Below are positions 7,696 to 50,018 of a stretch of 64,000 bases of DNA, one piece after another. The translations under genes and the position numbers were made by a program. Origin of the DNA: an uncultured bacterium (GTDB lineage: Bacteria; Bacteroidota; Bacteroidia; Chitinophagales; Chitinophagaceae); contig CAIKEH010000042.1 in assembly GCA_903826405.1 (NCBI GenBank), positions 186,001 to 250,000 of the forward strand, read 5' to 3'. The notes beneath the pieces are model-generated. The model searched no databases. It was given only the letters and a program-made list of their open reading frames with translations, and had not been told where the DNA came from. Position 1 is the first letter of the stretch. Each line of letters begins with the position of its first letter.

Positions 7696-9027
7696 TCAAG
7701 ATCTCCTGAAAGCCCATTTGATCATTTCCTTCCATGATGATCTCTTCCCATACATCAATATGCCAATGCGGTAAACTTTACCTGCGAACCAAGTGGTGAA
7801 CAGAAAGCCACCTATCAGCATCAGCATGGAAAGTGCAAGTTGCCAATAGGGTACCGTGTCCGGCACTCCAAAAGGTATGCGCCCCATCATCACGATAGGG
7901 GAAGTGAAAGGAATGATACTTGCCCAAACTGCCACCGGACTGTTCGGATTGTTTAAGCTGCTGGTGAGGATGATGAACCCGAATATGATGGGCATGGTGA
8001 TGGGTAGCATGAGAGACTGTGCTTCCTGAGGGTCCTCATTGATCACACTTCCAATTGCCGCGAAAAGGGATGCATAAAACAGGTATCCCCCCAGAAAATA
8101 GAACATGAAGAGCAAGATGATCAGCGTCCAATTGACGCCAGTGGTGAGATGGGTCTTCGCTTCAAGTAGTTTGAAGGCCAGATCTGTGCCCCCGCCTCCG
8201 GGTATGGGTTGCTGAATTTGCTGCATTTGCTGGACATGTATCCATGTCTCATGTGGAATGAATAGTTGGATCCCTGTTGAAAGTAGCAGGATGAGTAGGA
8301 TCCATAGCATGAATTGAGTGAGGCCGACGCCGGCGATCCCGATGATCTTGCCCAACATGAGTTCGAACGGTTTGCAAGAGGAGACTATCACTTCTGCGAT
8401 CCGATTCATCTTTTCTTCTGCCACACCCCTCATGACCATGGCTCCGAATATGAACATCGTAATGTATATGAGTATGCCACTGCCGAATCCTATGCCATAA
8501 GCAAGTCCGACATTGGCGTTCTTCGCATCGCCCGATCTATCAGTTACGATATTTTTGAGGCTGACGGCATGTTCACTCATGGAGGATACGGAATCAAGCA
8601 TGGCACGGGAAATCCCATTTTCCAGTAAGAGACGGTTTTCGATGGCCTTATTCAACTGGCTTTCGATCTTACCCTTGGATTCAAGTCCAACTTGCTTTTT
8701 AGATATCAGTTTGAAATTCCGGTCCGTGGGATCTGTTGGCAAATAAAGGACGGCATCAAAGCCTTTTTCCTTAAAATTCATGCTGTCCACGTCTTTGCGG
8801 AATGCAAAGCTCACTAATTCCGAATCTGATCGGAGAGCGGATGCATAAAACCCAGGATCGTTCACCACGGCGATATTTTGCTTCTCGCGTGAATGGATCG
8901 CGAAAAAGACGGATCCGAATATGAAGAGGATCATCATGATGGGCAATAGGAATGTGGACAAGATGAAGGTTTTGTTGCGAACCCTGGTCAGATATTCCCT
9001 TTTGATGATGATGCCGATCTTGCTCAT
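7696..9027 (-). CDS. ABC-2 type exporter permease (NatB-like)
   Basis: This 443-aa membrane subunit partners the upstream ATPase. The N-terminus MSKIGIIIKREYLTRVRNKT leads into a first transmembrane helix (about 22-43). A large extracytoplasmic domain follows, to about residue 175. Five or six further helices follow, with the conserved GAMVMRGVAEEKMNRIAEVI block typical of Na+/drug ABC-2 permeases. A longer frame opens at an ATG (9073-9075) that overlaps the ATPase stop as ATGA. The overlap suggests translational coupling, but the family N-terminus begins at 9027, so I chose that and note the 16-residue longer form as possible. The substrate is unknown. Confidence 0.88.
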   Translation of the reverse strand: MSKIGIIIKREYLTRVRNKTFILSTFLLPIMMILFIFGSVFFAIHSREKQNIAVVNDPGFYASALRSDSELVSFAFRKDVDSMNFKEKGFDAVLYLPTDPTDRNFKLISKKQVGLESKGKIESQLNKAIENRLLLENGISRAMLDSVSSMSEHAVSLKNIVTDRSGDAKNANVGLAYGIGFGSGILIYITMFIFGAMVMRGVAEEKMNRIAEVIVSSCKPFELMLGKIIGIAGVGLTQFMLWILLILLLSTGIQLFIPHETWIHVQQMQQIQQPIPGGGGTDLAFKLLEAKTHLTTGVNWTLIILLFMFYFLGGYLFYASLFAAIGSVINEDPQEAQSLMLPITMPIIFGFIILTSSLNNPNSPVAVWASIIPFTSPIVMMGRIPFGVPDTVPYWQLALSMLMLIGGFLFTTWFAGKVYRIGILMYGKRSSWKEMIKWAFRRS

Positions 9028-9071
9028 GGTGCGGGTTGAAATAGTAAAATCACATTTGTCAGAGAGGATGA

Positions 9072-10013
9072 TCATTTTTCGGCCACCTCGAATCTTCTGG
9101 TTTTTGGAGATCCCTCCACCAGCCGGATGAAGATGTCGTTCAAGGAAGGTAGTAATTCCCGGAATCCATGGACGAGGAGTCCTTTGTGTATGAAGTACTG
9201 AAGTATATCATTGGTGGTGAAATCAGGATTCTTTTTGATGATAATCGACTTTTCTTCTTTTTTGACTACTTCGAACAGGTGTATGGCTGTATGTTCAGGT
9301 AACACCATTTGTTCAAATTCGATTTGGTAAAGGTTCTCCTTGTATTCCGATTTTACGTCGGCCACGCTTCCATCCAGAATTTTCTTTCCCTTGTTGACCA
9401 GAATGATGTGATCGCAGATCTCCTCCACCTGTTCCATCCTGTGTGTGCTGAAAATGATGGTGCTTCCGGCTTTGGCTAGTCGGTCGATCTCATCTTTGAT
9501 GAGATTCGCGTTCACGGGATCAAGCCCGCTGAATGGCTCATCAAGAATGATGAGCTTGGGTCGGTGGAGAACGGTGGTAACGAATTGGAGTTTCTGACTC
9601 ATTCCTTTGCTGAGGTCCTCCACTTTTTTGTTCCACCAACTTTGCATCTCCAGCCTGATGAACCATTCCTTGATATTGGTTACGGCTTCTTGATGGGAAA
9701 GCCCTTTAAGTTGAGCAAGGTAAACGGCCTGTTCACCGATCTTCATTTTCTTGTATAAGCCCCTTTCTTCGGGCATATATCCGATATGGGCTGTATCCGC
9801 TTCCGGATCGAAGGGCTTCCCATCAAAAAGTATTTTGCCTTGATCCGGGAAGAAGATGCCGGTGATCATTCTTAACAGTGTGGTCTTGCCTGCTCCGTTG
9901 GGGCCTAATAATCCAAATATGGAACCCCTGTTGATGCTGAAACTGATATCATCAACAGCTTTCTGACCGGAAAAGAATTTTTTGATATTTCTTACTTCAA
10001 GGATTTTTTCCAT
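9072..10013 (-). CDS. ABC exporter ATP-binding protein (NatA-like)
   Basis: This 313-aa ATPase powers the adjacent permease. It shows Walker A GPNGAGKTT (about 37-45), the Q-loop region GYMPEERGLYKKM, signature LSKGMSQKLQF (about 133), Walker B LIILDEPFSGLDP and the H-loop STHRMEQ. A C-terminal extension of about 90 residues (from about 220) is the DUF4162-like tail common in this subfamily. The stop overlaps the possible permease ATG by ATGA. Together the two genes form a two-gene exporter operon for ions, drugs or lipids, with specificity not readable. Confidence 0.93.
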   Translation of the reverse strand: MEKILEVRNIKKFFSGQKAVDDISFSINRGSIFGLLGPNGAGKTTLLRMITGIFFPDQGKILFDGKPFDPEADTAHIGYMPEERGLYKKMKIGEQAVYLAQLKGLSHQEAVTNIKEWFIRLEMQSWWNKKVEDLSKGMSQKLQFVTTVLHRPKLIILDEPFSGLDPVNANLIKDEIDRLAKAGSTIIFSTHRMEQVEEICDHIILVNKGKKILDGSVADVKSEYKENLYQIEFEQMVLPEHTAIHLFEVVKKEEKSIIIKKNPDFTTNDILQYFIHKGLLVHGFRELLPSLNDIFIRLVEGSPKTRRFEVAEK

Positions 10014-10163: not shown

Positions 10164-11774
10164 TCAGGTTGATGATACTAATTCTGCAAGCTTGGCAGCC
10201 ACGGCTTCTCCGTCCATGGCCGCGCTGATGATTCCGCCAGCATAGCCTGCTCCTTCCCCACAGGGATAGAGGTTCGAAATCTGAGGATGTACAAGGGTGT
10301 TCGTATGCCGAGGGATCCTGATCGGGGAGGAGGTTCGACTTTCAGTAGCAACCAAGAGCGCTTCGTTGGTACGATAACCTTTCATTTTATTGCCGAAAGC
10401 CATGAAGCCTTCCCGCAGTCGTTGTGAAATGAAGGGAGGCAGAACATCTTTAATTGAGGCTGATCTGACCCCTGGCTGGTACGAACAGTCCGGCAAGTTG
10501 GAGGATGTCGCGTTTCTGATGAAATCCTCCATTCGTTGAGCAGGTGCAACGAAATGCCCACCACCTGCCCGGAATGCATCTGCTTCCACCATTTGTTGGA
10601 AGCGAAGTAGCAATAAAGGGTCATCTTCTTTTGACCACTTGCCCTTGGTTGATCTTTTTGTTTTTAGGAAAGATGCGGCTTCTTTTTGACCGACCTGAAC
10701 CACCATGCCTGAATTTGCGAACGGGTTATTCCTTTTGGAAGGGCTCCATCCGTTGACCACAAGTTCACCGGGAGATGTAGCTGCGGGTGCGATAATGCCA
10801 CCCGGGCACATGCAGAAGGAGAATACGCCACTCCCTTCTACCTGTTCCACCAAACTGTAGGAGGCGGGAGGCAACAGGGGGGAGCGAACGGAACCGATGG
10901 GACAATGATATTGGACCGAATCGATCAGATTCTGGGGATGTTCCACACGAACACCCAGAGCGAAGGGTTTGGCTTCGATGAGTATGTTTTCCCGGTTGAG
11001 CAGTTCGAAAATATCACGAGCGGAGTGCCCAGTGGCCAAAATGAAAGCATCAGCATGATACCTGTTGCCATCAGAACTGTGCACAGCGGTGAGTCTGCCT
11101 TTTTCGGTGATCAGACCATCTACTTTTGTCCCGAAATGAAATATACCCCCATGCTCCATAATGCATTCCCTCATGGCAGTGATGATCTGAGGGAGTTTGT
11201 TTGTTCCGATATGTGGGTGGGATTCAAAGAGGATCTTTTCCTCCGCCCCGAATCGGACGAGCAGGTGCAGAATTCGATCCACATCGCCTCGTTTATTGCT
11301 ACGGGTATAGAGTTTGCCATCGCTGTAGGTTCCCGCCCCACCTTCACCGAAGCAGTAATTACTTTCTGGGTCTAATATGCCTTCCTTATTCAACTTGGCC
11401 AAGTCACGTCGACGTGTGCGGACGTCCTTACCGCGTTCCAATACGATGGGCCGAATACCTTTTTCCAGAAGGGATAGAGCAGCGAAAAGACCTGCCGGGC
11501 CTGCGCCGATTATGACGACCTGCTTCGGTTTTTTGCGCACGTCCTGGAATGTGAAATTCCGGATAGTCCTCTTGCTGTAAGGCTCATTGATGAATACCTT
11601 GGCCAGAAGGTTTATCCTGATCTGTTTTCCGCGCGCATCGATGGACCGCTTCAGGGAATGGAATCCGGTGATCGAGGATGGTGGACAGGCGAGGGCCTCA
11701 GCCATCTTGGCTTTGATGGCGCTATCTTCAGACGCCTCTCGAGGTGACAATTGGAGCGAAAGATTCTGTTGCAT
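10164..11774 (-). CDS. FAD-dependent dehydrogenase (COG2509-type)
   Basis: This 536-aa flavoprotein has an N-terminal substrate-like domain of about 90 residues, then a Rossmann FAD site VVIIGAGPAGLFAALSLLEK (about 91-110) ending in VLERG. The conserved CFGEGGAGTYSDGKL segment (about 142-156) is a hallmark of the uncharacterised COG2509 dehydrogenases. A second FAD contact, ATGHSARDIFELL, and the C-terminal GEGAGYAGGIISAAMDG complete the fold. The electron donor and substrate are unknown. It follows the DUF3127 gene by 35 bp on the same strand, so the two are probably co-transcribed. Confidence 0.88.
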   Translation of the reverse strand: MQQNLSLQLSPREASEDSAIKAKMAEALACPPSSITGFHSLKRSIDARGKQIRINLLAKVFINEPYSKRTIRNFTFQDVRKKPKQVVIIGAGPAGLFAALSLLEKGIRPIVLERGKDVRTRRRDLAKLNKEGILDPESNYCFGEGGAGTYSDGKLYTRSNKRGDVDRILHLLVRFGAEEKILFESHPHIGTNKLPQIITAMRECIMEHGGIFHFGTKVDGLITEKGRLTAVHSSDGNRYHADAFILATGHSARDIFELLNRENILIEAKPFALGVRVEHPQNLIDSVQYHCPIGSVRSPLLPPASYSLVEQVEGSGVFSFCMCPGGIIAPAATSPGELVVNGWSPSKRNNPFANSGMVVQVGQKEAASFLKTKRSTKGKWSKEDDPLLLLRFQQMVEADAFRAGGGHFVAPAQRMEDFIRNATSSNLPDCSYQPGVRSASIKDVLPPFISQRLREGFMAFGNKMKGYRTNEALLVATESRTSSPIRIPRHTNTLVHPQISNLYPCGEGAGYAGGIISAAMDGEAVAAKLAELVSST

Positions 11775-11809
11775 GCCGGGTCAGGTATTCATCCTGAAAA
11801 CGGAAAAAT

Positions 11810-12190
11810 TCAGAAGGGAAGGTCGTCCACTGCATCAGAGGGAGCAGGATTTGCAGGTTGATAGGCTGAATTACCGGAACCGCCATTATTGGACTGCCCG
11901 CCTGCGGATTCTATCCTCCAGGCATCCAGATTAGTGATGTAATTGGTGTTGCCGTTCTTCTCCCACTTGGAACCTCTGATATTGAAGTGCACTTTGACCA
12001 GTTCCCCAATACTGAAACGGTCGATCACTGTTGTTCTATCCTGAACGGACTGGAACTTGACATAATTGGTGATGGTCCTGCCATTGATTTCCTCGCTGGT
12101 TTCTATGACGAATTCCCTTGTTTTGAAGGTTTCAGTACGTTGTACGGTGTCGAATTTGGCAACTAGTTTGCCGGTGATGTCAAATCCCAT
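11810..12190 (-). CDS. DUF3127 OB-fold-like protein with SSB-type acidic tail
   Basis: The protein has 126 aa. Residues 1-90 form the DUF3127 domain (MGFDITGKLVAKFDTVQRTE at the start, later VKVHFNIRGSKW). A Gly/Asn/Ser/Pro-rich linker follows, then the C-terminal tail DAVDDLPF. The design copies that of single-stranded DNA-binding proteins, whose DDIPF-type tip recruits repair proteins, so a ssDNA or RNA role is likely but inferred. The start at 12190 was chosen over a Met 8 codons upstream because a TAnnTTTG box (12212-12219) overlaps that earlier codon. Confidence 0.85.
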   Translation of the reverse strand: MGFDITGKLVAKFDTVQRTETFKTREFVIETSEEINGRTITNYVKFQSVQDRTTVIDRFSIGELVKVHFNIRGSKWEKNGNTNYITNLDAWRIESAGGQSNNGGSGNSAYQPANPAPSDAVDDLPF

Positions 12191-12211
12191 GTAGCATATT
12201 TTTAAGTTTTG

Positions 12212-12219
12212 CAAAGGTA
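12212..12219 (-). promoter_or_regulatory. Candidate -7 element of the DUF3127 gene
   Basis: On the minus strand TACCTTTG matches TAnnTTTG exactly. It lies 21 nt before the ATG at 12190. It covers the upstream in-frame Met at 12214, which supports the shorter start. The -33 element is not convincing. Confidence 0.45.
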
Positions 12220-13180
12220 TCGCTATTCACCAGTATCATGGAATTCTGTTTTTGAGGCAGATTCTTCTAACATGATCTGCCTTTATTTATAATGGGAATT
12301 TTGTGTCAGACCGTTCCTGCCAAAATGATAATTCGGGAATTTTAGGCTTTTGGGGGACTTTTTTTAAAAAAAGGCCAAAATGGGTTGCAAAATGTTTCAG
12401 TAATACTTTTCTGGAACTGTAATTCCAACTTCCTGTAGGTCTGACAAAATGGTGCATGAATTTTTACGGATTCTCTCCGTTGGACAAGCCTTTCATAGGT
12501 ATAAAGTATTCTGGATTAATTGGTAGATCTATGCTTCATCTTGGTTTGGAGTTTGGAATCTGGCGGAAGAAGATATCCGGGAATCTGCTAAGTTTTACTT
12601 TAGTCAATGTTAATCAATGGTATATGGACTCAGAATTCAACTTTTAAAATTTTTTTCGGGAATACCTCTTTCCCTTGGTCGACCGATTAATTGGTCAATG
12701 TCTATTCGAAGTTGGCAAAATATCATGCAAACCTTTCCTGGAAGAGTATACCTGACAAGCTTTCTGGGAGGTCTATTTTTTGAGGGGGGATTGGTGAAAA
12801 TCAAGGTGGGGATTGTCATTAGGAGGCACACGAAAAAAATAAGGAGAATAAAAATTTTTTTTTCAACATACCCCACTCTATATTCGCTACCCTCTCAAAA
12901 AGTACCCCTTTTCCCGACAGGAAAAAAGACCTGATTAGAGTAGGAAATTCCATATATTTATTTGAATACAACTTGACCGAAACGATGTACAACACAAGTT
13001 TATCCAAAGCCCGGGTTCTTTACCGAAGAAAGTGGGGGAGCCCTGGGTTGAAGACTGGCACTTCACCCGTTCAGTCTTTTGGATCAAGCTACTTGTGCTC
13101 TCTGCCTGAATAATACCAAGTTGATACCCACTGAAGATCATGAGCACATTTTGAAACCCTACTAAAAGGCCAATGAAATA
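12220..13180. other. 960-bp AT-rich intergenic region upstream of dnaA
   Basis: No recognisable gene is present. It has a widely spaced inverted pair TGTCAGACC (12304-12312) and GGTCTGACA (12438-12446). It also has an imperfect palindrome GACCGATTAATTGGTC (12681-12696) and long A/T runs near 12840-12870. A minus-strand frame at 12637-12876 would encode a 79-aa protein with one hydrophobic segment (IFILLIFFVCLLMTIPTLIF), but it lacks any family signature. Only one loose DnaA-box-like word (TTATCCAAA near 13001) is seen, so an origin is not supported. Confidence 0.5.
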
Positions 13181-15290: not shown

Positions 15291-15936
15291 GTTTGCCTTC
15301 AAGCAAAGCCGAAGGCTGAACGCCGCCGGTCAAGTAAAGGCTCATGGAATGTCCAGAAGAGCCCACAAAACAGGCTCAACATATGTATTCTACAACCAAC
15401 GCTCAAAACGCCCCCCCTTAAGTCAATTGATTTCAAGTGGTTCTGGCGTTTTAGAGCAGTCAAATAAGTTCGGAAAGGCTCAGAAAAAAGGGCTTTGAGG
15501 GGCCAAATTCGGGGGTGGTAGCGAAGTGAACCCTTGGTGCCCGGAATGTTCAGTAAGCCTAGACTTGGCAAGCTATTTAGTGATTGAACTTCTTAACTCA
15601 TGTTTCCTACCTTCAGTTTTTAAACTAACGGGCAACTCTCCTTTTGCCTTCTTGTATCTATGGTCCCAAACATCGGAATTCCTCTCTTCTGCCGATACGA
15701 AAATCCGGTTGGCCTGTAGCCCTTCCAACGCGAAAAGCAATATGCCTGCATTATCTGGACATATTTAATGCCGCACTGACTTTTCTCAGTTTTCTGGTAA
15801 TCAACCTTTTCGATGGGTATTTCTTTGCTCTGACTGCTTAAGCCTGAATGATCATATTCTGATCTAAAGTGACTTTGTCCATACCATAATGGGGCGTATG
15901 GGGAAGCTAACCTACATTTTACTATATTACAAGAGT
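15291..15936. other. Intergenic region after tRNA-Ser with a possible gene remnant
   Basis: No recognisable gene. On the minus strand a frame without stops runs from about 15891 down to a TAA at 15620-15622 (about 90 codons). It includes stretches that read like protein (SSQSKEIPIEKVDYQKTEK, then QAYCFSRWKGYRPTGFSYR). It has no early Met, and a second frame over the same stretch also looks protein-like (MDKVTLDQNMIIQA). This could be a decayed gene inserted next to the tRNA, or chance. I do not recognise a family. Confidence 0.3.
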
Positions 15937-17199
15937 ATGCCGCTGTATAAAAAAGTTCTCTCCACCCGTGTTATAGCACTTTTGTTAGCGCTTTGTGTTT
16001 TTCTGCTTTCTACCTGCGTAGGTGGACGAAAGGAAACCCCGGTTGCTGAACCCAGAGTGAATTTGACGGCGGAGAACAACGTGCTGGTAGGCTCCGCTGC
16101 CTGCAGAAAATGCCACCAGGAGATCTACGACAACTACGTGTACACTGCACATAAAGCTACGTCGGCGCCTGCCAACCTTCAGACCGTAAAAGGATCTTTC
16201 CTTGCGGGTCAGAATACATATGTGTTCGGAAAGCAGGATTCCGTGGTCATGCGGTCTACGGATTCGGGTCTATATCAATTCAATTATGTTGGCGGTGAAC
16301 TTCGTTATGCCTTCCCATTTGGTATTGTAGTTGGATCCGGGAGCAAGGGGCAGAGCTATCTGTATTGGAGGGAAAACCATCTTTTCCAGTTGGCCATCTC
16401 CTACTATTCTAGTGCACATAGTTGGTCCAACAGCCCTGGTTTTAACAGATACAGTGCTAATTTCAACAGACCAATCCACAGTGAGTGCATGGGTTGCCAC
16501 GGGAGTTTCACGGATGTGGACTTCAATTCTGGTTTCCTGTTGGAAGCGTACAATCCCAAAACCATGGTGATGGGTGTGAACTGTGAGCGTTGCCATGGGC
16601 CGGGCGGAAACCACGTGGAGATGTTCACCAGGAATCCCAATGCCAAAGGGGATCCGCAAGTGGTCAATGCTGCCAAACTTTCACGACTGAAACAACTGGA
16701 CGCATGCGGCGTCTGCCATGCCAGTATCTACAAAACCATGACCCCCATAGTGAGTTTTCGAACCGGTGATACCCTGTCCATGGTTTCAATGGAAAATTTG
16801 GATAGCACCGGTCGTATAGATGTGCATGGCAATCAATATGGAATGCTCAAGCGTAGCAAATGTTTTATCGCTTCCAATACGTTGACCTGCAGTACCTGTC
16901 ATGATCCGCATAAGGCAGAGCGCGGTAATGAGGCCATGTTCTCTCAACGGTGCATGACTTGTCACACCGATAAGAATACCAATTTCGCAAAGATGATCCC
17001 TGCCATGCCGGTGGACCAGATCAAACAGAAATGCATTACTTGCCATATGCCAAATCAGGAGTCGAAAGTGCTGAATGTCCGTCTGGAACAGAACCAGTCT
17101 CGAACTCCTGCAGTGATGCGCTCTCATCTGATCCGCGTTTATCCGGATACCTTTCCCTCCATTTCGGTACTTTTCCGTAAAGGGAAAATAATACCATAG
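15937..17199 (+). CDS. Seven-heme c-type cytochrome lipoprotein
   Basis: This 420-aa protein has a lipoprotein signal (hydrophobic ALLLALCVFLL, lipobox LSTC) and should sit in the periplasm or on the outer membrane. Seven CxxCH motifs are visible: CRKCH, CMGCH, CERCH, CGVCH, CSTCH, CMTCH and CITCH. The arrangement resembles cytochrome c554 / doubled-CxxCH proteins that carry electrons or act on small nitrogen or sulfur compounds. An in-frame ATG 16 codons upstream exists, but MPLYKKVLSTRVIALL gives a proper signal peptide. The next gene (233 bp later, same strand) encodes an Asp-box propeller. Maturation genes (ccs/ccm) are not in the window. The redox partner is unknown. Confidence 0.88.
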   Translation: MPLYKKVLSTRVIALLLALCVFLLSTCVGGRKETPVAEPRVNLTAENNVLVGSAACRKCHQEIYDNYVYTAHKATSAPANLQTVKGSFLAGQNTYVFGKQDSVVMRSTDSGLYQFNYVGGELRYAFPFGIVVGSGSKGQSYLYWRENHLFQLAISYYSSAHSWSNSPGFNRYSANFNRPIHSECMGCHGSFTDVDFNSGFLLEAYNPKTMVMGVNCERCHGPGGNHVEMFTRNPNAKGDPQVVNAAKLSRLKQLDACGVCHASIYKTMTPIVSFRTGDTLSMVSMENLDSTGRIDVHGNQYGMLKRSKCFIASNTLTCSTCHDPHKAERGNEAMFSQRCMTCHTDKNTNFAKMIPAMPVDQIKQKCITCHMPNQESKVLNVRLEQNQSRTPAVMRSHLIRVYPDTFPSISVLFRKGKIIP

Positions 17200-32786: not shown

Positions 32787-34049
32787 TCATTTCATGATGG
32801 AAATTTGATTTGCTTTCCAGTCGGGGAATAGATCGGCATCATGCCGGATCTCCAGATGTTTTTTGGCCACTTCATTGAATACGGTTCTGAAATCGGTTGT
32901 CACGGGCAGATCACGTCCATCTGCCAGATTATCCTGCGATAGCGGTTGTATGTTCCCATGAACGACGCCTCCCTGAACATCATTTCCCAGTATGAAACTG
33001 CAGCTGGCACGACCATGGTCCGTGCCTCCGGTTCCATTTTGCTTCACGGTGCGACCGAATTCCGTTGCGGTCATCAGGGTGACATCATCCTGGTATTGTC
33101 CCAGATCGTTCCAAAATGCGGAGATACTTGCGCCGAGGTCTTTCGCATTTCGGGCGAATGTACCGTTATCCGTGCCTTGATTGAAGTGCGTATCCCATCC
33201 ACTACTTTCCGCAAACGCAATCTCTAGGCCAACATTAATCTTGATGAGTTGGGCGATCTGCTTGAGAGCGTTTCCCAGTGGTGACATGGGATAGGTGGCA
33301 CCATTTGCTGGTATGTAGTGACGGATATCTGTTTTACCCAAGATCTGCAGTGCTTCAAAAGTTTCTTGACCATTCTTGTTCAACAAGGAAGAACTGGTCT
33401 GGTCATAGAGTTCCTCGAAGCTTTTGGCGGCGAGATTGGCCATTGACGGATTGGCTTTTGCCTGGATGGCAAAATCATTCAAATTGTTGATGGCCAATGC
33501 TGGGAAATCGCCGTACAGCGAACGGGGAAGTGCCGAGGTCAGGCTAACGGCGGAAAAAGGGGTTCCCTGGCTGCCGGTAGCCTTCGCGGTCCGATTGAGC
33601 CAACCGTCGGGAGTGCCTTTGCTGAACGGGGTACCACTTTCCATGTAATCCTGTGCATCAAAATGACTTCTTGATTCGTTCGGGGAACCCATTCCATGAA
33701 TGATGGCAAGTCTTTTTTCATGGAATAGGGGTTCCATCCCGGAAAAAGCGGGATGTAATCCGAATCTGCCATCCAGATCCATCAAAGGGGTATGTCCACT
33801 ATTTTTTGCAGCAGTCATGAACAAAGTGGGGCGGAATTGGGAGAGATGGGCATCTGTGAAGGGCGTGACGGCCATGAGACCGTCCATAGCACCTCGCTGG
33901 AAAATGAAGACGAGTGTTTTGGGCCTGCGGAATGAAACCGAATGTTTTTCATTAGCAGCGGCTCGCAATAGGAACCCAGGTATGCCTGTTAGTCCCAAGC
34001 TGAGCAGAGACATGCCTGCTCCTTTCATAAAATATCTTCTGTTGGTCAT
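32787..34049 (-). CDS. DUF1501 exported protein
   Basis: The protein has 420 aa. The N-terminus MTNRRYFMKGAGMSLLSLGL is Tat-like. Conserved DUF1501 features are LVFIFQRGAMDGLMAV (about 45-60), GWDTHFNQGTDNG, TEFGRTVKQNGTGGTDHGRA and a C-terminal PDWK. The family is distantly related to the alkaline phosphatase/sulfatase fold, and its enzymatic role is unknown. It follows the DUF1800 gene by 7 bp and is very probably translated from the same mRNA, an arrangement seen across many bacteria. Convergent with the OMP receptor. Confidence 0.9.
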   Translation of the reverse strand: MTNRRYFMKGAGMSLLSLGLTGIPGFLLRAAANEKHSVSFRRPKTLVFIFQRGAMDGLMAVTPFTDAHLSQFRPTLFMTAAKNSGHTPLMDLDGRFGLHPAFSGMEPLFHEKRLAIIHGMGSPNESRSHFDAQDYMESGTPFSKGTPDGWLNRTAKATGSQGTPFSAVSLTSALPRSLYGDFPALAINNLNDFAIQAKANPSMANLAAKSFEELYDQTSSSLLNKNGQETFEALQILGKTDIRHYIPANGATYPMSPLGNALKQIAQLIKINVGLEIAFAESSGWDTHFNQGTDNGTFARNAKDLGASISAFWNDLGQYQDDVTLMTATEFGRTVKQNGTGGTDHGRASCSFILGNDVQGGVVHGNIQPLSQDNLADGRDLPVTTDFRTVFNEVAKKHLEIRHDADLFPDWKANQISIMK

Positions 34050-34056
34050 GACTGAT

Positions 34057-36027
34057 CTATTTTCGTTGAAATTCAGGTGATCCTATGATGATGCCTACGA
34101 CCTGTGCGAGCAATTTGTTCTCATCCTGCATGATTTGCTGATCTTCTGTAACAGGGGCTGCAGGTCTTTGTTTTTTCTTTTCAGTTACTTCTTCTTCGAA
34201 CATGTCATCAACGATTTGGATGTTTTCCTGTACCGGTGAACTTGCAGCCGCGTCATTTATCTTCTGCTGAATGCTCGGGTCCATGACTAAGGGTTTTAGT
34301 CTGTTCAGGGTGGGTTCCATGTCCCGCCCCGGCAGTATGAGGTAGGCATATGTTTTTAATGCGTCTTCCGAACTCTCCGGTTCATGATGATCATTGAGTG
34401 CTGCAAGGTCAAGATGTACACCAGGTATCTTTTGTGCCGCCATGTCCATGCCGAAGTTCATTCTACTGATCAGTGATCCCGCATTGATCCAGTAGCTTCC
34501 TTTGTCCGGGAAACCTGTTGGAGCTTGATAATGGTATAAATTTTGTCCCATTTTCTTGATGTAGTTATAAATCATGAAAGGAGCCTTGACATCGGCATTC
34601 AGTATCCTGATGCTGGCGATGGCAAGTTCGAATGGGGATCGTGTTTTTTCTCGAACGGATCCCTTTGCCCAGAATTCCGGCGATGCAACCATGGTTTTGA
34701 GTACTTCTTGTATATCTCCATCCGAAGTCCGGAATGTTTTGGCCATCCGCACAATCAGTGCAGAGGGTGGTTCATCGCAGACGAAACGAACCGCCAATTT
34801 TTTGCAGATGAATGTTGCGGTGGATTGATGATCGGCAAGTAGCCTGATCAATGCCACACCTTCCTCATACCCCCCACCTTGGCGGAAAGTCTTCCCAAGA
34901 ACCGTTTTCTCCTTTGTGTCATGGCGGTTCATGGCAAAAAGAAAATCCCCATCATGCAGGAATCCTTTTGCAGTTAATCTATCTTCTCCTGATTGGTCAA
35001 ACATCTTGCGGATGACCCGCCCAGGACCTTCCTGATTTGCCGGGAAAATGGTCCATCCGGTAAGCACCCTTGCAGCTTCCGTTACATCATTTTGCGTATA
35101 TCCACCATCAACACCCATGGTATGGAGTTCCATGATCTCCCTGGCATAGTTCTCATTTAATCCCTCATTCTTCAATCGATCTACCCTTTTTTGGAGTTGT
35201 TTCGCCAATGGGCTTTCCGGATCCAGGGAACCTATTTTGCGATGCATTCTTTCTTCTGCCATCCTTTTTTGTTCCAACATCTGTTCATTCTGACCCATGC
35301 TGGAAAAATTATCGAGGTAAAGCAACATGGCCGGGGATCGGGCAGTTGCCAGGAGCAGGTTGAAGAATTTGCCGGTTGCGTTCGGTCTGATCACATCACG
35401 TTCGAAGGAAGGGATATAGGGAGCGCATTCGTTTTTGGTCAATGACACGTTGAAATGGTTGAACCAGAAATCGGTCAAGATTTCCTGAAGTTGATTATTG
35501 CTGTAGGCGGCCCTGAGTATTTTCTGATTGATGAACTGACGGAACAGTTCTTGATGGGGTCGGTAGTTTTTGCTGTCCATGTATGCTTTTATGGCTTGCC
35601 TGTTCTCAGGAGATTTTTTATCGGGAAGGAATTCGTCCTTCTTCAAGAATCCGGCTTCCACGGCTTCTTTGAACAGCCGAGCTGGTCTTGGGAATATTGA
35701 AAGCACTTGTTCATTGCTTAGAGCAAGTGCATCGTATTGGGCGAGTCTTTTATCGAGTTCTTCATTCGGCAGGTTGCCCTTCAGTTGCGCCAAGAACCAT
35801 TCTTCCAAACCCATTTTGGCCAATCGGTCGGGATCTTCTTTATGCGCACCGAACGTGAATCGATCCAACAGGTGAGCTGCGGCTTGTTTCTTGGTCAATC
35901 CAGCTTCCGCCCAGGGCATGTGAAATGGGGAATGGTAATAGTGGGGAGAAGGCCTGAATGACGAAATGGATATCAGGATAATTATGAGAATCCAGGGTTT
36001 GCTCTGGAGATATTTAGTAAATGCCAT
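34057..36027 (-). CDS. DUF1800 exported protein
   Basis: The protein has 656 aa. A Sec signal (WILIIILISISSF) is followed by the DUF1800 core. This starts AAAHLLDRFTFGAHKEDPDR and includes ILTDFWFNHFNVSLTKNE and REIMELHTMGVDGGYTQNDV, then AARVLTGWTI. The C-terminal part includes PTGFPDKGSYWINAGSLISR. A Glu/Lys-rich insert (FEEEVTEKKKQRP) lies near the end. The function is unknown. It forms a fixed two-gene pair with DUF1501. The preceding gene (intradiol-dioxygenase-like) is on the same strand, 162 bp upstream. Confidence 0.9.
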   Translation of the reverse strand: MAFTKYLQSKPWILIIILISISSFRPSPHYYHSPFHMPWAEAGLTKKQAAAHLLDRFTFGAHKEDPDRLAKMGLEEWFLAQLKGNLPNEELDKRLAQYDALALSNEQVLSIFPRPARLFKEAVEAGFLKKDEFLPDKKSPENRQAIKAYMDSKNYRPHQELFRQFINQKILRAAYSNNQLQEILTDFWFNHFNVSLTKNECAPYIPSFERDVIRPNATGKFFNLLLATARSPAMLLYLDNFSSMGQNEQMLEQKRMAEERMHRKIGSLDPESPLAKQLQKRVDRLKNEGLNENYAREIMELHTMGVDGGYTQNDVTEAARVLTGWTIFPANQEGPGRVIRKMFDQSGEDRLTAKGFLHDGDFLFAMNRHDTKEKTVLGKTFRQGGGYEEGVALIRLLADHQSTATFICKKLAVRFVCDEPPSALIVRMAKTFRTSDGDIQEVLKTMVASPEFWAKGSVREKTRSPFELAIASIRILNADVKAPFMIYNYIKKMGQNLYHYQAPTGFPDKGSYWINAGSLISRMNFGMDMAAQKIPGVHLDLAALNDHHEPESSEDALKTYAYLILPGRDMEPTLNRLKPLVMDPSIQQKINDAAASSPVQENIQIVDDMFEEEVTEKKKQRPAAPVTEDQQIMQDENKLLAQVVGIIIGSPEFQRK

Positions 36028-39171: not shown

Positions 39172-40455
39172 ATGGGTAATTCATGTTTTTCGAGATTCTG
39201 TGATCCAATCTTTGGGATGATATTCCTAATCTTCTTGATCTCATGTGGAACGGGCGGGATGAAATCTTCCAACTCAAACGGATTCAAATTCAATCAGAAT
39301 TTCCAGGACAAGCTGCTGGAGAAGTGCATTCTTGCGGAGGATGGAACTGTAATCGAGATCCCAGAAGGCAAATTTCTATTGAGCAAACCCCTTTCCATAG
39401 ATGGCAAAAAGCGTATCACCATCAGAGGGAAGGGTGTAGGAAAGAGTTTCCTCTCTTTTTCGCGTCAATCTGAAGGCGGTGAAGGTTTTCTTGTCACGAA
39501 CAGTACAGGTGTGATCATGGAAGGGTTCACCGTTCAGGATGCGAAAGGGAATAACATCAAATTGCTCAATTGCGACACTGTTTTGATCCGGAACATGAAT
39601 TCTACTTGGACAAGCGGCGTGGACAGTACCAATGGTGATTATGCTTATTACCCCGTTCAGTGCAAGAATCTCGTGATGGAAAATTGTGAAGCTTCTTTTT
39701 CCAGCGATGCCGGGATTTATGTAGGTCAGACCATCAATGTTGTTGTCCGGAACTGTCATGCGCATCATAATGTTGCCGGAATCGAGATCGAAAATTGCAT
39801 CAATTCTGATGTTTATCATAACCTGTCAGAGAATAATACCGGCGGGATACTGGTTTTCGATACTCCCGGACTCCCTCTGCACAATGGAAGGAACGCGAGG
39901 GTTTACGACAATGACTGTCTGAATAATAACGAGAAGAATTTCGGGAAAGTCAGTTCCCTGGTATCATCCGTGCCCCCAGGTTCAGGGATCATCGTGATGG
40001 GGACCGACAGCGCGGAATTTCATCACAACCGCATTAAATTCAACAAGACCTTCGGTTTGACCGTGGTCAGTTTTCAACTAACGGGTAAGCCGTTCAATGA
40101 TTCTTTGTATGGCCAATATTGCACGGCGATCTACATTCATGACAATATATTTGACACCGAATCCATTTCCATCCCCGATCTTACCACTGACTTGGGCAAG
40201 CTTGTTTCGTTGGGATTGAAAGGGTATAAGGATATCATCGTGGACGGATCGGCCGATCCCGCCTATAGCAAAGTGGGCGGCATAGTTCCAGAGGAAAAGA
40301 GAATCTGCATCAGGAATAATGGCGAGATCAAGTTCGCAGACTTGAACCTATGGGCCGTGAAAGGCGAGAGTGATATCACTGATCATGTGGAATATGATCT
40401 TGGCAAATACGATTGTAGCCATTCTGGCATCAAGGGCGACCCCGGTAAACCATGA
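39172..40455 (+). CDS. Parallel beta-helix lipoprotein (partner of diheme cytochrome)
   Basis: The protein has 427 aa from ATG 39172 (a GTG lies two codons earlier). It has a lipoprotein signal with lipobox LISC (FGMIFLIFLISCGTGG). The body is a right-handed parallel beta-helix: repeated short blocks such as GVIMEGFTVQDAKGNNIKLL, TVLIRNMNSTW and GIYVGQTINVVVRNCHAHH. Then come VAGIEIENCINSDVYHN and FHHNRIKF. From memory this matches the TIGR03805 family, which occurs as a two-gene pair with a TIGR03806-type diheme cytochrome. Such folds bind or cleave polysaccharides, but no catalytic site is evident. Its stop overlaps the next start as ATGA. Confidence 0.82.
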   Translation: MGNSCFSRFCDPIFGMIFLIFLISCGTGGMKSSNSNGFKFNQNFQDKLLEKCILAEDGTVIEIPEGKFLLSKPLSIDGKKRITIRGKGVGKSFLSFSRQSEGGEGFLVTNSTGVIMEGFTVQDAKGNNIKLLNCDTVLIRNMNSTWTSGVDSTNGDYAYYPVQCKNLVMENCEASFSSDAGIYVGQTINVVVRNCHAHHNVAGIEIENCINSDVYHNLSENNTGGILVFDTPGLPLHNGRNARVYDNDCLNNNEKNFGKVSSLVSSVPPGSGIIVMGTDSAEFHHNRIKFNKTFGLTVVSFQLTGKPFNDSLYGQYCTAIYIHDNIFDTESISIPDLTTDLGKLVSLGLKGYKDIIVDGSADPAYSKVGGIVPEEKRICIRNNGEIKFADLNLWAVKGESDITDHVEYDLGKYDCSHSGIKGDPGKP

Positions 40456-41558
40456 TCATGAAGCGAACCTCCCTGATCTTCGTTTGTTCGATGCTGCTTT
40501 TGATCTTGATCGTTTTCGATCAATGTCAAAACCGGGGCAATAAAGAGGTTACACTTGATGTCAACTATTCAACTCCTCCCAAACGACTGTCAGACTATCA
40601 TTTCTTCAAAGGTGAGATGAATGAACTTTTGCCGAACAATCGGGTGCTTCCATATGATCTCATCACACCTTTGTTCAGTGACTATGCCCAGAAGCAAAGA
40701 TTCGTATGGATGCCGGAAGGTGTTTCGGCTAAATATACTCGTGATGAGGTGTTTGATTTTCCCTTAGGCACGGTACTCATCAAGAATTTTTACTACCCTT
40801 ACGATCTCCGGGATCAATCGAAAGGCCGACGTATCGTCGAGACCAGACTGTTGATCCATAAGTCCGACAAGTGGGATGCGTTGACATATGTTTGGAATGA
40901 AAAACAGGATGACGCGGAGCTGAACATCATTGGTGCGAACAGGAATGTGGAATGGGTGGATCTGAATGGTATAAAAATGCATGATGATTATTCCGTGCCA
41001 AATAAAAATCAGTGCAAGGGTTGCCATGGTTTCAACGGTAGCCTGAGTGCCATTGGTCCAAAGGTTCGAAACCTCAATCATGATTATGATTATGTGGAAG
41101 GCAGGTCAAATCAGTTGGCACGCTGGGCTTCTACAGGATATCTCACCGGTTTTGACGCCGCTGCCAATCTGAGTAATAAAGTTGCCAAATGGGACGATAG
41201 CACAACGGGCACCGTTGAGCTGCGAGCGCGGGCATATCTTGACGTGAATTGCGCGCACTGCCATCGACCCGAGGGGTCAGCCAATCCGAGTGGACTTTAT
41301 CTATTTTATGGCAACACGGACCCCGGCAAATTGGGTGTGCTGAAGACCCCTGAGGCAGCTGGTAGTGGTGGCGGCGATTTTCTATACGACATCATCCCCG
41401 GCCATCCAGAGTCATCCATACTTCCTTATCGGATGGGGAATATCGATCCTGGCAAGATGATGCCGCAGATCGGGCGCAAGTTGGTACATCAGGAAGGCCT
41501 CGATCTCATAAAGACTTGGATCTCTTCCATGCCGCAAAAGGCATCAATTAAGAAATGA
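40452..41558 (+). CDS. SO_2930-type diheme c-type cytochrome
   Basis: The protein has 368 aa. The ATG overlaps the upstream stop by ATGA, and a second Met two codons later is an alternative start. The N-terminus is a lipoprotein-like signal (SLIFVCSMLLLILIVFDQC). The N-terminal half (PKRLSDYHFFKGEMNELLPN, NRVLPYDLITPLFSDYAQK) is a hallmark of this family. Two heme motifs, CKGCH (about 186) and CAHCH (about 273), sit in the C-terminal cytochrome-like half. With the beta-helix partner it forms a conserved pair of unknown function. Translational coupling implies the two proteins work together in the periplasm. Confidence 0.85.
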   Translation: MIMKRTSLIFVCSMLLLILIVFDQCQNRGNKEVTLDVNYSTPPKRLSDYHFFKGEMNELLPNNRVLPYDLITPLFSDYAQKQRFVWMPEGVSAKYTRDEVFDFPLGTVLIKNFYYPYDLRDQSKGRRIVETRLLIHKSDKWDALTYVWNEKQDDAELNIIGANRNVEWVDLNGIKMHDDYSVPNKNQCKGCHGFNGSLSAIGPKVRNLNHDYDYVEGRSNQLARWASTGYLTGFDAAANLSNKVAKWDDSTTGTVELRARAYLDVNCAHCHRPEGSANPSGLYLFYGNTDPGKLGVLKTPEAAGSGGGDFLYDIIPGHPESSILPYRMGNIDPGKMMPQIGRKLVHQEGLDLIKTWISSMPQKASIKK

Positions 41559-47033: not shown

Positions 47034-50018
47034 TCATTCTATAATGAGCAGCCAGCCTTTACCGTTCTCTACAGGTATTTCTTCGCTAGGACTGAAATTT
47101 CTTTCCGGTTGAAAATTCATGATCTCCGGTGCTTTTATTTTTGCTTGGTCAGGGTTTATTCCCAATGCCTTCCAATCGATTTTCAATCGGAAACTGTCAT
47201 TCTTCCCAGCCCAACTGGCGATCGATACCATTGACCGACCTTTCTTCCGGTATACGGTGGCTTTGATGTTTGGCTTGTCCGTACTAACAGGACACTTATT
47301 AGACCAATATCCGATCATTTCACTACCTGTCATACCGAAAGAATCCCATGTTTTCCATATCGGACGGGGATCCGCTTTTTGGGACCAGGGCATGCGACTG
47401 GTCATTCCATATACCATACCTCTCCAGGGATTGCCACCGCCCTCTAACATCTCTCCCATCAATCCAAAGGGTATACCGCTCACTTCCGTCAGGAAAAAAT
47501 CGGGACCATTTTTTTCATAATCAAAGTATTCCCCGAACCAGAGTCTGCTTAAGTATGGGAAATGTTCCATGTACAGATTGGCGCTGTTGTTAAACCCATC
47601 GTTCTTGTTGTATTGGTTGGCGGAATGCAGATCGATGATGCCTGGATGACCATCTTGGGTAAGTACTCTTTTGATGCGTTTCATGGTGACCCTGTCGAAG
47701 GCCACATCATCCAGATAGATACCGTCAATGCCTACATTTCGGGTCAGCCAATTCATTCCTTCCACATAATAATTATGCCATCTGCTCATTCCGCTGTTGA
47801 CCAGGGCGGCGTCCTTGATCTCTGGAACGAACCATGCGGCGATGTAGTCTTCTCCTATATGTTCCTGCAGCCAGCTAAAACCGCCCCCTTTGCCTGTTGA
47901 GTAGATTTCATGTCCGAGACTGCGCATAGGGAAAGTTTCGTAAGCATGATTGGAAAGTTCCCGAACGGTATTGTAGATCTTCACTTTGAGACCTTTGGCA
48001 TGTGCACTGTCTATATAATCTTTCATCTTCTTGTATTCGATGAAAGGATAGTTGATCCAGGGATTGATAGGCGTGGCATGATGGATATTCACTATCGTTG
48101 CACCGGCCATTTTGATGCTATCGAGATCCTGATACTTATGATAAAATCTGCCGGCCCATTGAAAGTCGGTGTTGAGTGTATGGAAAGGAGTGATCAGCAG
48201 GGTGAAGTTGTAAAATAGCACATCCCCTTTTTTCAAGTTCCTGCTTCCGCTATAGTTATGTACCATGATGGCATTTCCTTCCGGGAAGATCCGAATACCA
48301 CCTTTTTTACCATTCGCCCATGAATTGGGTAGGATAAGGGGTTTTTGCAGGTAGAAATTGGTATTGAGAGGACGTACATACCTTTCATCTCGCAGCGAGT
48401 ATTGTAGTCCTGCATTCACACTTCCGATCCAGGCGCCATCCTGATTAAGGGAGTCCACTTTCCATTTCCAGTCAAGTGTGTCCGGGCGTATCCCTCCTTT
48501 CCTGCCCAGGCCCATGAGGTAATCCGATGCGGATTTTTGAAAGGGCATTTCCAGAGAAAATTCTGAAAGGGATATATCCTGATTTGCTGTGATCTTTATA
48601 GTATAGTCGACGAAACCATCGAATTCAAGGGAAGCAGATACCTCCATTTGCAAGGGTCCATTGGAACTCATGACCGACCAGGAGTAAGTGCCAGAAGACT
48701 TTTTGGTGAATGTAGTTGAGTTTGATCTCCAACTCAAGGCTTTGCCGTCTTCAGATCTAATGCACACGAAGCGCATGGGATTGGATAATATTTCGTTCGG
48801 GGTTGATTGATAATTGGTCATCTCCGGAGTGAAGAAGGTCTGGATCTTTCCGGGAAGTCCGTCAGGTGAAAGAGTCAGTTTCCTGCCCAGCAGGCTTATC
48901 GTTCTGCCATCAAGTTTAAGGTCGGTGTACGGTGCGATTACCTTGTTTTCCTGGGCTAAAGTGGAATTCAGCCATTTCAATCTGGTTTGCTTCCAAGGTT
49001 CACTGATGCCGCCATCGGTGGAGATCTCTTTGCCAACCTCCAGCGTGATCCGGGTGACGGCATCTGGTGCATTTCGGGAACTGATGGTTGCTGTACCGGT
49101 GTATATTCCTGGAGGGATGCCCGAAGGAATGTCGATACCGCACCAGAGTGCTTGTATCTTACCTTGGTCTACGAGAATCCTTTTGGTGAAGGGTTTGCCA
49201 GTATAGTCCACTCCTGCGGAATTTAAACAGTAAAGATTTTTTTCTGGTATGATGCCCTTCCCGTTTTTCAATGCACTGAGTTTGACACGGACATCCTCCA
49301 GCGTCTTCAATGCGTACAATCCCAACTGGAAAGTGTAATTCTCCCCTCGTGATGCACGTCCTTGGAATGAGTTGTTCGCGCCATTCTGCACCCATCGGTA
49401 GGGTAGGTGGTCGGTCATTTTGATAGGATGTTGTCTGTCTTCAGGGAATACGATCAAATCCTGCCTTGCAGCGGATGATACCAGATTCTTCGTTTCCTTA
49501 TCCGTTGCAATTACCTCCATGGGGTAAAAGCTGTTCATTTCGTTGATGGACTGGATCCCGATTGTGGTGCAGTTTGTCGATATATCTGATCCTTTTGATC
49601 CTGGCCAAGATGGCGAGGCTGTAGAGTCTGGTTTCAGGTAGGTTCCTTTGGGATAATTGGACCTTCCCTCGTTTCTAGACGGAAGGTAATAGCAGTAATA
49701 AGTGCCTTTTCCCGATATGGGTTCGAAAAGAAGGTCGCCAAGTTCATTATTAATGTTCAGTGCTCTGAAATTCAGGATTCGATCTCCCGTTTTTCCATCC
49801 TGAATGATGATCCTTTTTTGATCTGGATTCTTATCGCGTCTCCTCCATGGGATTATCACCCTTGCGACACGACCCATCCCGTCAAAGCGAATGACTGCTC
49901 GATGGTTTCCAAGGGAGTCCGCATTCCAGATATTTTCCGCCACCGAATACTCCAATATTTGAGCATGGGCAGTATATGCAAGCAGGATGTTTGATATGAG
50001 AAAGATGATTTTTTGCAT
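47034..50018 (-). CDS. GH123/DUF6067-like glycoside hydrolase, exported
   Basis: The protein has 994 aa with a Sec signal (IIFLISNILLAYTAHAQ). The N-terminal 550 residues include beta-sandwich regions (GH123_N-like: FTPEMTNYQSTPNEILSNPM). A TIM-barrel-like catalytic part follows (WAGRFYHKYQDLDSIKMAG to GMNWLTRNVGIDGIYLDDVA). IYLDDVAFD and the ENGKGWLLIIE end are visible. Acid residues in LDD and in FLTEVSG are catalytic candidates. GH123 cleaves N-acetylgalactosaminides, but the substrate here is not certain. It precedes DUF5107 on the same strand (111-bp gap). Repeat C begins 36 bp upstream of its start. Confidence 0.8.
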   Translation of the reverse strand: MQKIIFLISNILLAYTAHAQILEYSVAENIWNADSLGNHRAVIRFDGMGRVARVIIPWRRRDKNPDQKRIIIQDGKTGDRILNFRALNINNELGDLLFEPISGKGTYYCYYLPSRNEGRSNYPKGTYLKPDSTASPSWPGSKGSDISTNCTTIGIQSINEMNSFYPMEVIATDKETKNLVSSAARQDLIVFPEDRQHPIKMTDHLPYRWVQNGANNSFQGRASRGENYTFQLGLYALKTLEDVRVKLSALKNGKGIIPEKNLYCLNSAGVDYTGKPFTKRILVDQGKIQALWCGIDIPSGIPPGIYTGTATISSRNAPDAVTRITLEVGKEISTDGGISEPWKQTRLKWLNSTLAQENKVIAPYTDLKLDGRTISLLGRKLTLSPDGLPGKIQTFFTPEMTNYQSTPNEILSNPMRFVCIRSEDGKALSWRSNSTTFTKKSSGTYSWSVMSSNGPLQMEVSASLEFDGFVDYTIKITANQDISLSEFSLEMPFQKSASDYLMGLGRKGGIRPDTLDWKWKVDSLNQDGAWIGSVNAGLQYSLRDERYVRPLNTNFYLQKPLILPNSWANGKKGGIRIFPEGNAIMVHNYSGSRNLKKGDVLFYNFTLLITPFHTLNTDFQWAGRFYHKYQDLDSIKMAGATIVNIHHATPINPWINYPFIEYKKMKDYIDSAHAKGLKVKIYNTVRELSNHAYETFPMRSLGHEIYSTGKGGGFSWLQEHIGEDYIAAWFVPEIKDAALVNSGMSRWHNYYVEGMNWLTRNVGIDGIYLDDVAFDRVTMKRIKRVLTQDGHPGIIDLHSANQYNKNDGFNNSANLYMEHFPYLSRLWFGEYFDYEKNGPDFFLTEVSGIPFGLMGEMLEGGGNPWRGMVYGMTSRMPWSQKADPRPIWKTWDSFGMTGSEMIGYWSNKCPVSTDKPNIKATVYRKKGRSMVSIASWAGKNDSFRLKIDWKALGINPDQAKIKAPEIMNFQPERNFSPSEEIPVENGKGWLLIIE

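Follow-up and report, generated by a model that had tools for sequence, protein, structure and literature searches.

Two adjoining genes in a 64,000-nucleotide stretch of DNA (hereafter, the window), encoding an exported beta-helix protein (B) and a diheme c-type cytochrome (C), are an ordinary member of the known, unexplained TIGR03805-TIGR03806 pair, and the co-occurrence, adjacency and fusion of B and C across genomes leave little doubt that the two proteins work together. The families were known beforehand; the new element is how firmly they are linked to each other. B and C together are likely an exported oxidoreductase. The fuller reading that we favour, tentatively and at slightly under an even chance, is an exported two-part heme c redox unit in which B would bind a carbohydrate-like substrate and C would move electrons.

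The gene pair in the window

B (positions 39172-40455, forward strand) is 427 aa long when read from its ATG, the first start in the frame being a GTG six bases upstream. C (40452-41558, forward strand; 368 aa), a member of TIGR03806 or the 'SO2930 family', begins within the stop of B in an ATGA overlap (40452-40455, forward strand), and the same 4-base overlap was found in loci L041, L048, L051 and L065. Both reading frames and the overlap had been described in an earlier note made from the sequence alone, which also named the two families and asked for an HMM check. The names were right: in searches with the NCBIfam HMMs, B scores 302.5 bits against TIGR03805 (cut-off 141.5; model positions 2-313 of 314) and C scores 395 bits against TIGR03806 (cut-off 313.3; model positions 1-314 of 314). 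Because these scores are far above the curated cut-offs and the B-C order is the same in other phyla, chance can be ruled out for the pair. B further matches the Pfam families Beta_helix (49.6 against a threshold of 25.9) and NosD (31.2 against 23.6). Neither B nor C matched PF07995 (GSDH, PQQ sugar dehydrogenase) at E 0.01, and our own GSDH profile found no GSDH in positions 29001-53000 of the window.

The pair is flanked by YceI and DUF481 genes. Repeats were limited to two-copy matches of a chance-like kind, and promoter-like sites numbered 12, compared with 5.0 (sd 2.1) in shuffles, none of them on the forward strand just upstream of B. Elsewhere, the window carries a multiheme cytochrome gene (15889-17199) with Pfam matches of the Cytochrome_C554, C7 and MtrC/MtrF-like kinds, DUF1501 and DUF1800 genes side by side about 3 kb before the pair (32787-36027), and a gene with a very strong match to the GH123 N-terminal family (47034-50018; 1504.9 bits).

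In agreement with the statement of the earlier note that the pair has no assigned function, none was found in the literature searched, and a search on TIGR03806 and on HNE_0200 returned nothing for either. One table places SO_2930 and SO_2931 as outer-membrane or extracellular cytochromes (PMC4837345). In another study, a strain was made that lacks seven loci at once, SO2931 among them, so that no effect can be assigned to this gene (PMC5829830). For Bcam1339, from an exopolysaccharide cluster, the relevant table passage gives a TIGR03805 prediction and lists no cytochrome (PMC3584217).

Co-occurrence of B and C

B-like helices below the cut-off are common, with matches at E 0.001 in 89 of 247 Bacteroidota and 47 of 299 Pseudomonadota genomes, and only matches over the curated cut-offs were therefore counted. 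Among the 247 Bacteroidota genomes, C is present in 18 and B in 20, and all 18 C carriers have both; among the 299 Pseudomonadota genomes, the corresponding numbers are 25 for C and 29 for B, with both in 25/25 C carriers (Fisher p 2e-25 and 1e-32, respectively, the genomes being treated as independent though they are related). The two genes are adjacent in 14 of the 18 Bacteroidota carriers and apart in four (G131, G013, G034 and G190), and they are adjacent or fused in 25/25 Pseudomonadota carriers. B over the cut-off is found without C over the cut-off in two Bacteroidota genomes (G033 and G134, of 247) and four Pseudomonadota genomes (G344, G459, G392 and G499, of 299). G344 and G459 encode B-C fusions in which the C part is below the cut-off, and the B matches of the other four genomes are weaker (181-189 bits).

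The pairing rule fails for divergent C-like genes below the cut-off. Long matches of this kind occur in eight Bacteroidota genomes (G226, G084, G012, G118, G057, G182, G134 and G093), only one of which, G134, has B over the cut-off. In Pseudomonadota, they occur in four genomes, including the B-C fusions of G459 and G344, as well as G511 and G452, which are without B over the cut-off. Four separate C genes below the cut-off (L182-L185) lack both B and GSDH in the flanks that were fetched.

A scan of contigs yielded at least 585 stretches encoding relatives (at least 590 candidates), from which the best 80 loci were taken. With all ORFs considered, B exceeds 100 bits by our own profile in 58 of these 80 loci (L063 among them); the other 22 lack such a B, some of them because the contig ends. 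Genomes were searched for 20 of the best 80 loci, chosen by us, and B was over the cut-off in 20/20, including 11 that have no B in the fetched locus (L010, L013, L014, L016, L020, L027, L035, L037, L043, L044 and L049). Among the matches listed, the pair is found in Bacteroidota, Pseudomonadota and contigs titled Bryobacterales, Binatia, Planctomycetaceae and Neomarinimicrobiota.

Single-chain fusions and export signals

In addition to being adjacent, B and C are found in single chains, always with B first and C last. Such fusions are encoded in L057, L061 and L076, in five Pseudomonadota genomes (G481, G555, G508, G459 and G344) and in more genomes of the order to which G481 belongs. A tree of 146 C rows, 17 of them fused, needs four changes of state, of which at least two are forced by starred branches; this is a quick tree with SH-aLRT support only, and some of its rows sit on long branches. 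The fusion alignment (A4) is a smaller set chosen by trial, part of the B rows having fallen into C columns in a larger one (A1). The earlier note had treated the two proteins as coupled, and this link is now strongly supported by co-occurrence in 43/43 C carriers, by adjacency and by the fusions.

Several loci depart from the simple two-gene arrangement. In L048, a second B gene (11088-12326) directly follows C, producing the order B-C-B. A separate second C gene accompanies the B-C fusion in L201-L208, from genomes of G481's order, where it comes after the fusion, and in L153, where two ORFs that by eye resemble transposases lie between the two. Further on in L201, the scan identified an AraC-type regulator and a VolA/Pla-1 lipase gene, and L202-L208 look alike by eye. 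In L175, an ORF (7799-9094) that appears FadL-like by eye stands directly before the fusion.

Both window proteins are probably exported. Under the lipobox motif rule, the N-terminus of B carries a canonical box, LISC (Cys25; 39235-39246, forward strand), whereas C has a hydrophobic start and a Cys25 within FDQC, the Gln before the Cys being non-canonical. Of the export signals reported in the earlier note, that of B is a putative lipobox by its motif, and the lipoprotein-like call for C is weaker because FDQC is not a canonical lipobox. A crude regular expression, run on B and C proteins from separate genes, whose start codons are uncertain, recovered the canonical box in 32 of 88 B proteins and in 40 of 121 C proteins. 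Among C proteins from Bacteroidota loci, a polar residue (Q, R, N or K) often precedes the Cys, unlike in the standard lipobox. In three B-C fusions, the single export-like signal seen by eye is at the N-terminus of B, and both parts should therefore share a compartment.

The predicted diheme protein C

Two CXXCH motifs are present in C, namely, CKGCH (C188-H192; 41013-41027, forward strand) and CAHCH (C267-H271; 41250-41264, forward strand). C188, C191 and H192 of the first and C267, C270 and H271 of the second are invariant across 61 rows, and C is accordingly predicted from its motifs to carry two hemes, as the earlier note had it. The alignment also singles out an invariant Met337 (41460-41462, forward strand) as a candidate heme ligand. 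The AlphaFold2 model of the window C (pLDDT 92.0, pTM 0.88) has a mostly beta part before the heme sites (residues 46-182; 40587-40997, forward strand). Foldseek matched this model to no PDB structure at E 0.001 or better (best 0.066), a search in which a distant relative may be missed, and sequence comparison likewise retrieved no PDB relatives of C.

The beta-helix protein B

The fold of B was modelled on the L057 fusion (pLDDT 83.8, pTM 0.57), in which the helix is confident and the linker of low confidence; for the window B, the basis is the Pfam Beta_helix match. Foldseek matches of the fusion model in the PDB include the RbmB lyase (E 1e-8) and the AlgE4 epimerase (TM 0.59 by target length), along with the AlgE6 epimerase, an inulin fructotransferase, a pectin methylesterase and some phage tailspikes. 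The model thus supports a beta-helix fold for B, with polysaccharide lyases and epimerases as the best matches, and the polysaccharide-type fold proposed in the earlier note is borne out on a relative of the window protein. By sequence, no convincing PDB relative of B was found, the best match (E 0.0011) covering a short stretch. A docking of B and C derived from the same model was rejected, as the domain placement is too uncertain at a pTM of 0.57.

Conservation was assessed in alignment A3 (50 rows), which has 39 invariant columns. When mapped on the secondary structure of L057, 16 of the 39 invariant residues, all between residues 157 and 229 (39640-39858, forward strand), are placed within the first strands of four successive coils or at the residue that directly follows such a strand: Y157, Y160 and P161; A180, G181, Y183, G185 and Q186; A202, G203, E205, I206, E207 and N208; and G225 and F229. 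They are preceded by the invariant K130 and N154 and the nearly invariant W146; the remaining invariant residues, many of them Gly and Asn, are elsewhere. Judging from the alternation of residues along the strands, the polar conserved residues would point outward. No redox cofactor site was recognised in B. Compared by eye, Y157 and Y160 are spaced like Y149 and D152 of the AlgE enzymes, the motif letters between the compared residues being those that we presume for AlgE.

Gene neighbourhood

Of 100 non-redundant loci, 16 have a TonB-dependent receptor gene no more than 300 bp from the pair. When the same receptors were placed at random within their loci, the mean was 1.1 and the highest count in 2000 draws was 6, kinship among the loci being ignored. 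The four seeds of this count were themselves neighbours of pairs and could favour the result; the count was therefore redone with other seeds, giving 18 of 100 loci against 1.4 expected and a maximum of 8, one of these seeds being an antisense frame, with a few hits that may be spurious. For seven of the eight neighbouring receptors that were scanned, the TonB-siderophore model is the best match, with every score below its cut-off (92-148 against 223.5 bits). In L008, the closest relative of the window pair, a TonB-dependent receptor gene follows C by 7 bp; the window pair has no such receptor beside it. On a Novosphingobium plasmid, the genes around the pair bear annotations as TonB-dependent receptors, alcohol dehydrogenases and aldehyde dehydrogenases.

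No family besides B and C recurs near most of the loci examined. TetR-like genes were seen by eye near 11 of the best 80 loci, and the one that was scanned, in L209, is below threshold (18.3 against 24). A penicillin-acylase-like gene lies near the pair in L087 (6070-7983) and also in L019, L032 and L050; the PvdQ match of the L087 gene is below the cut-off (143.8 against 950).

C-like domains joined to GSDH

Some C-like domains have another partner. In 9/9 long C-like proteins without B (L178-L181 and L213-L216 by Pfam, L150 by our own GSDH profile), a GSDH domain precedes the C-like domain; this count leaves out eight more long C-like ORFs, six in G575 and one each in G577 and G727. In the tree, these GSDH-joined C domains group separately from the B-C family (100*), and those scored against TIGR03806 are below its cut-off, so that their role carries over to C by analogy only. 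The single chain of L181 unites GSDH and a C-like domain with a type IX secretion tail, and its C-like domain may therefore act outside the cell. L013-L016, whose C belongs to the main family, have a GSDH gene that begins 12-49 bp downstream of C; these four loci are partly close kin, and the GSDH gene of L013, the one scanned, has a type IX secretion tail. By analogy with these chains and gene neighbours, C may serve as an electron partner.

A rule that makes GSDH an obligate third partner is unsupported, given that the distribution of GSDH genes among genomes does not follow that of B-C. Of the 247 Bacteroidota genomes, 121 have such a gene at E 1e-30 or better, compared with 18 that have B-C. 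The window genome has four PF07995 matches over the cut-off, the best GSDH being weak (131.6 bits). Among the 125 loci that had not been fetched as GSDH hits, 11 contain GSDH, in five cases as a GSDH-C chain.

Possible function of the pair

Because B and C go together in the sampled genomes and are sometimes fused, they very probably act as one electron-transferring unit. In the proposed mechanism, B and C would constitute one exported redox unit of the cell envelope. The conserved face of B would bind a carbohydrate-like or polymeric substrate, and C, presumably docked to B or, in the fusions, joined to it covalently, would shuttle electrons between the respiratory cytochrome c pool and the substrate side, an oxidation with C as the acceptor being the most likely case. 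Where a TonB-dependent receptor adjoins the pair, it may import the product or a ligand. This scheme would accommodate the suggestion of the earlier note that the activity is oxidative or electron-delivering and directed at a polymer or surface. A further-reaching proposal, which we regard as unlikely, is that the pair represents a distinct class of exported heme c enzymes in which a lyase/epimerase-type beta-helix takes the place of the GSDH dehydrogenase of related chains. A polysaccharide-type binding face would then be linked straight to a two-heme electron carrier, for whose fold Foldseek found no significant counterpart in solved structures.

Electrons could also flow the other way, with C sending them outward to a ligand of B or of the TonB-dependent receptor, such as a metal chelate or an oxidised compound, and thereby aiding its acquisition instead of oxidising food. 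The TonB-siderophore likeness of seven of the eight neighbouring receptors and the listing of SO_2930 and SO_2931 as outer-membrane or extracellular cytochromes (PMC4837345, in the table concerned) would be in keeping with such a reductive role, but the siderophore subtype rests on scores below the cut-off, the fold of B is of a type found in carbohydrate-active enzymes, and the distant C domains share a chain with a dehydrogenase-type domain, a setting in which they would be expected to act as acceptors; we consider reduction rather improbable. Our doubt is greater for a three-part enzyme in which a GSDH-type dehydrogenase would feed C in trans and B would be a substrate-binding scaffold. This arrangement is suggested by the GSDH genes that closely follow C in L013-L016, including the one with a type IX secretion tail, and by the existence of GSDH-C single chains, and appears quite unlikely in view of the wide spread of GSDH in Bacteroidota compared with B-C, the weak best GSDH of the window genome and the low frequency of GSDH in loci not fetched for it.

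The match of B above the Pfam NosD threshold raises the question of whether the pair serves maturation, with B acting in a NosD-like manner and C giving electrons for the assembly of a metal centre in another envelope enzyme. Such a role is very improbable, considering that B is far below the NCBIfam NosD cut-off, that 0/8 neighbouring window proteins scanned match nos families and that no additional gene family accompanies B and C in most loci. That B and C are mere neighbours with unrelated functions is barely credible: the four Bacteroidota genomes in which the two genes are apart and the divergent C-like genes without B speak for such independence, but they stand against co-occurrence in all 43 carriers and repeated fusion. 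The fusions and the change of partner, with either GSDH or a beta-helix before the heme domain, allow a concrete hypothesis to be framed for a family pair that had lacked an explanation. Chains in which B and C are naturally fused also offer convenient proteins for determining heme content, substrate and structure.

Comparison with known systems

The window B and C match nearly the whole TIGR03805 and TIGR03806 models, and no difference from these families was found. With AlgE4 and RbmB, B shares the right-handed beta-helix, as predicted from the model, and its Tyr spacing seems, by eye, to resemble that at Y149 of AlgE, whereas identity is 12-18%. The AlgE enzymes use Y149, D152, H154 and D178 (PMC8824271). 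As judged by eye, the places of D152 and H154 seem to be taken in B by Tyr160 and Val162 (Val or Ile in the family), and the AlgE mechanism is therefore not expected in B. NosD is likewise a point of resemblance, B being a predicted beta-helix above the Pfam NosD threshold, but membership of B in that family was rejected, as it reaches 26.1 bits against the TIGR04247 cut-off of 300. The proteins combining GSDH (PF07995) with a C-like heme domain resemble the B-C fusions in having the partner directly before the heme domain, and differ from them in that the partner is GSDH instead of a beta-helix and that their C domains form a separate clade.
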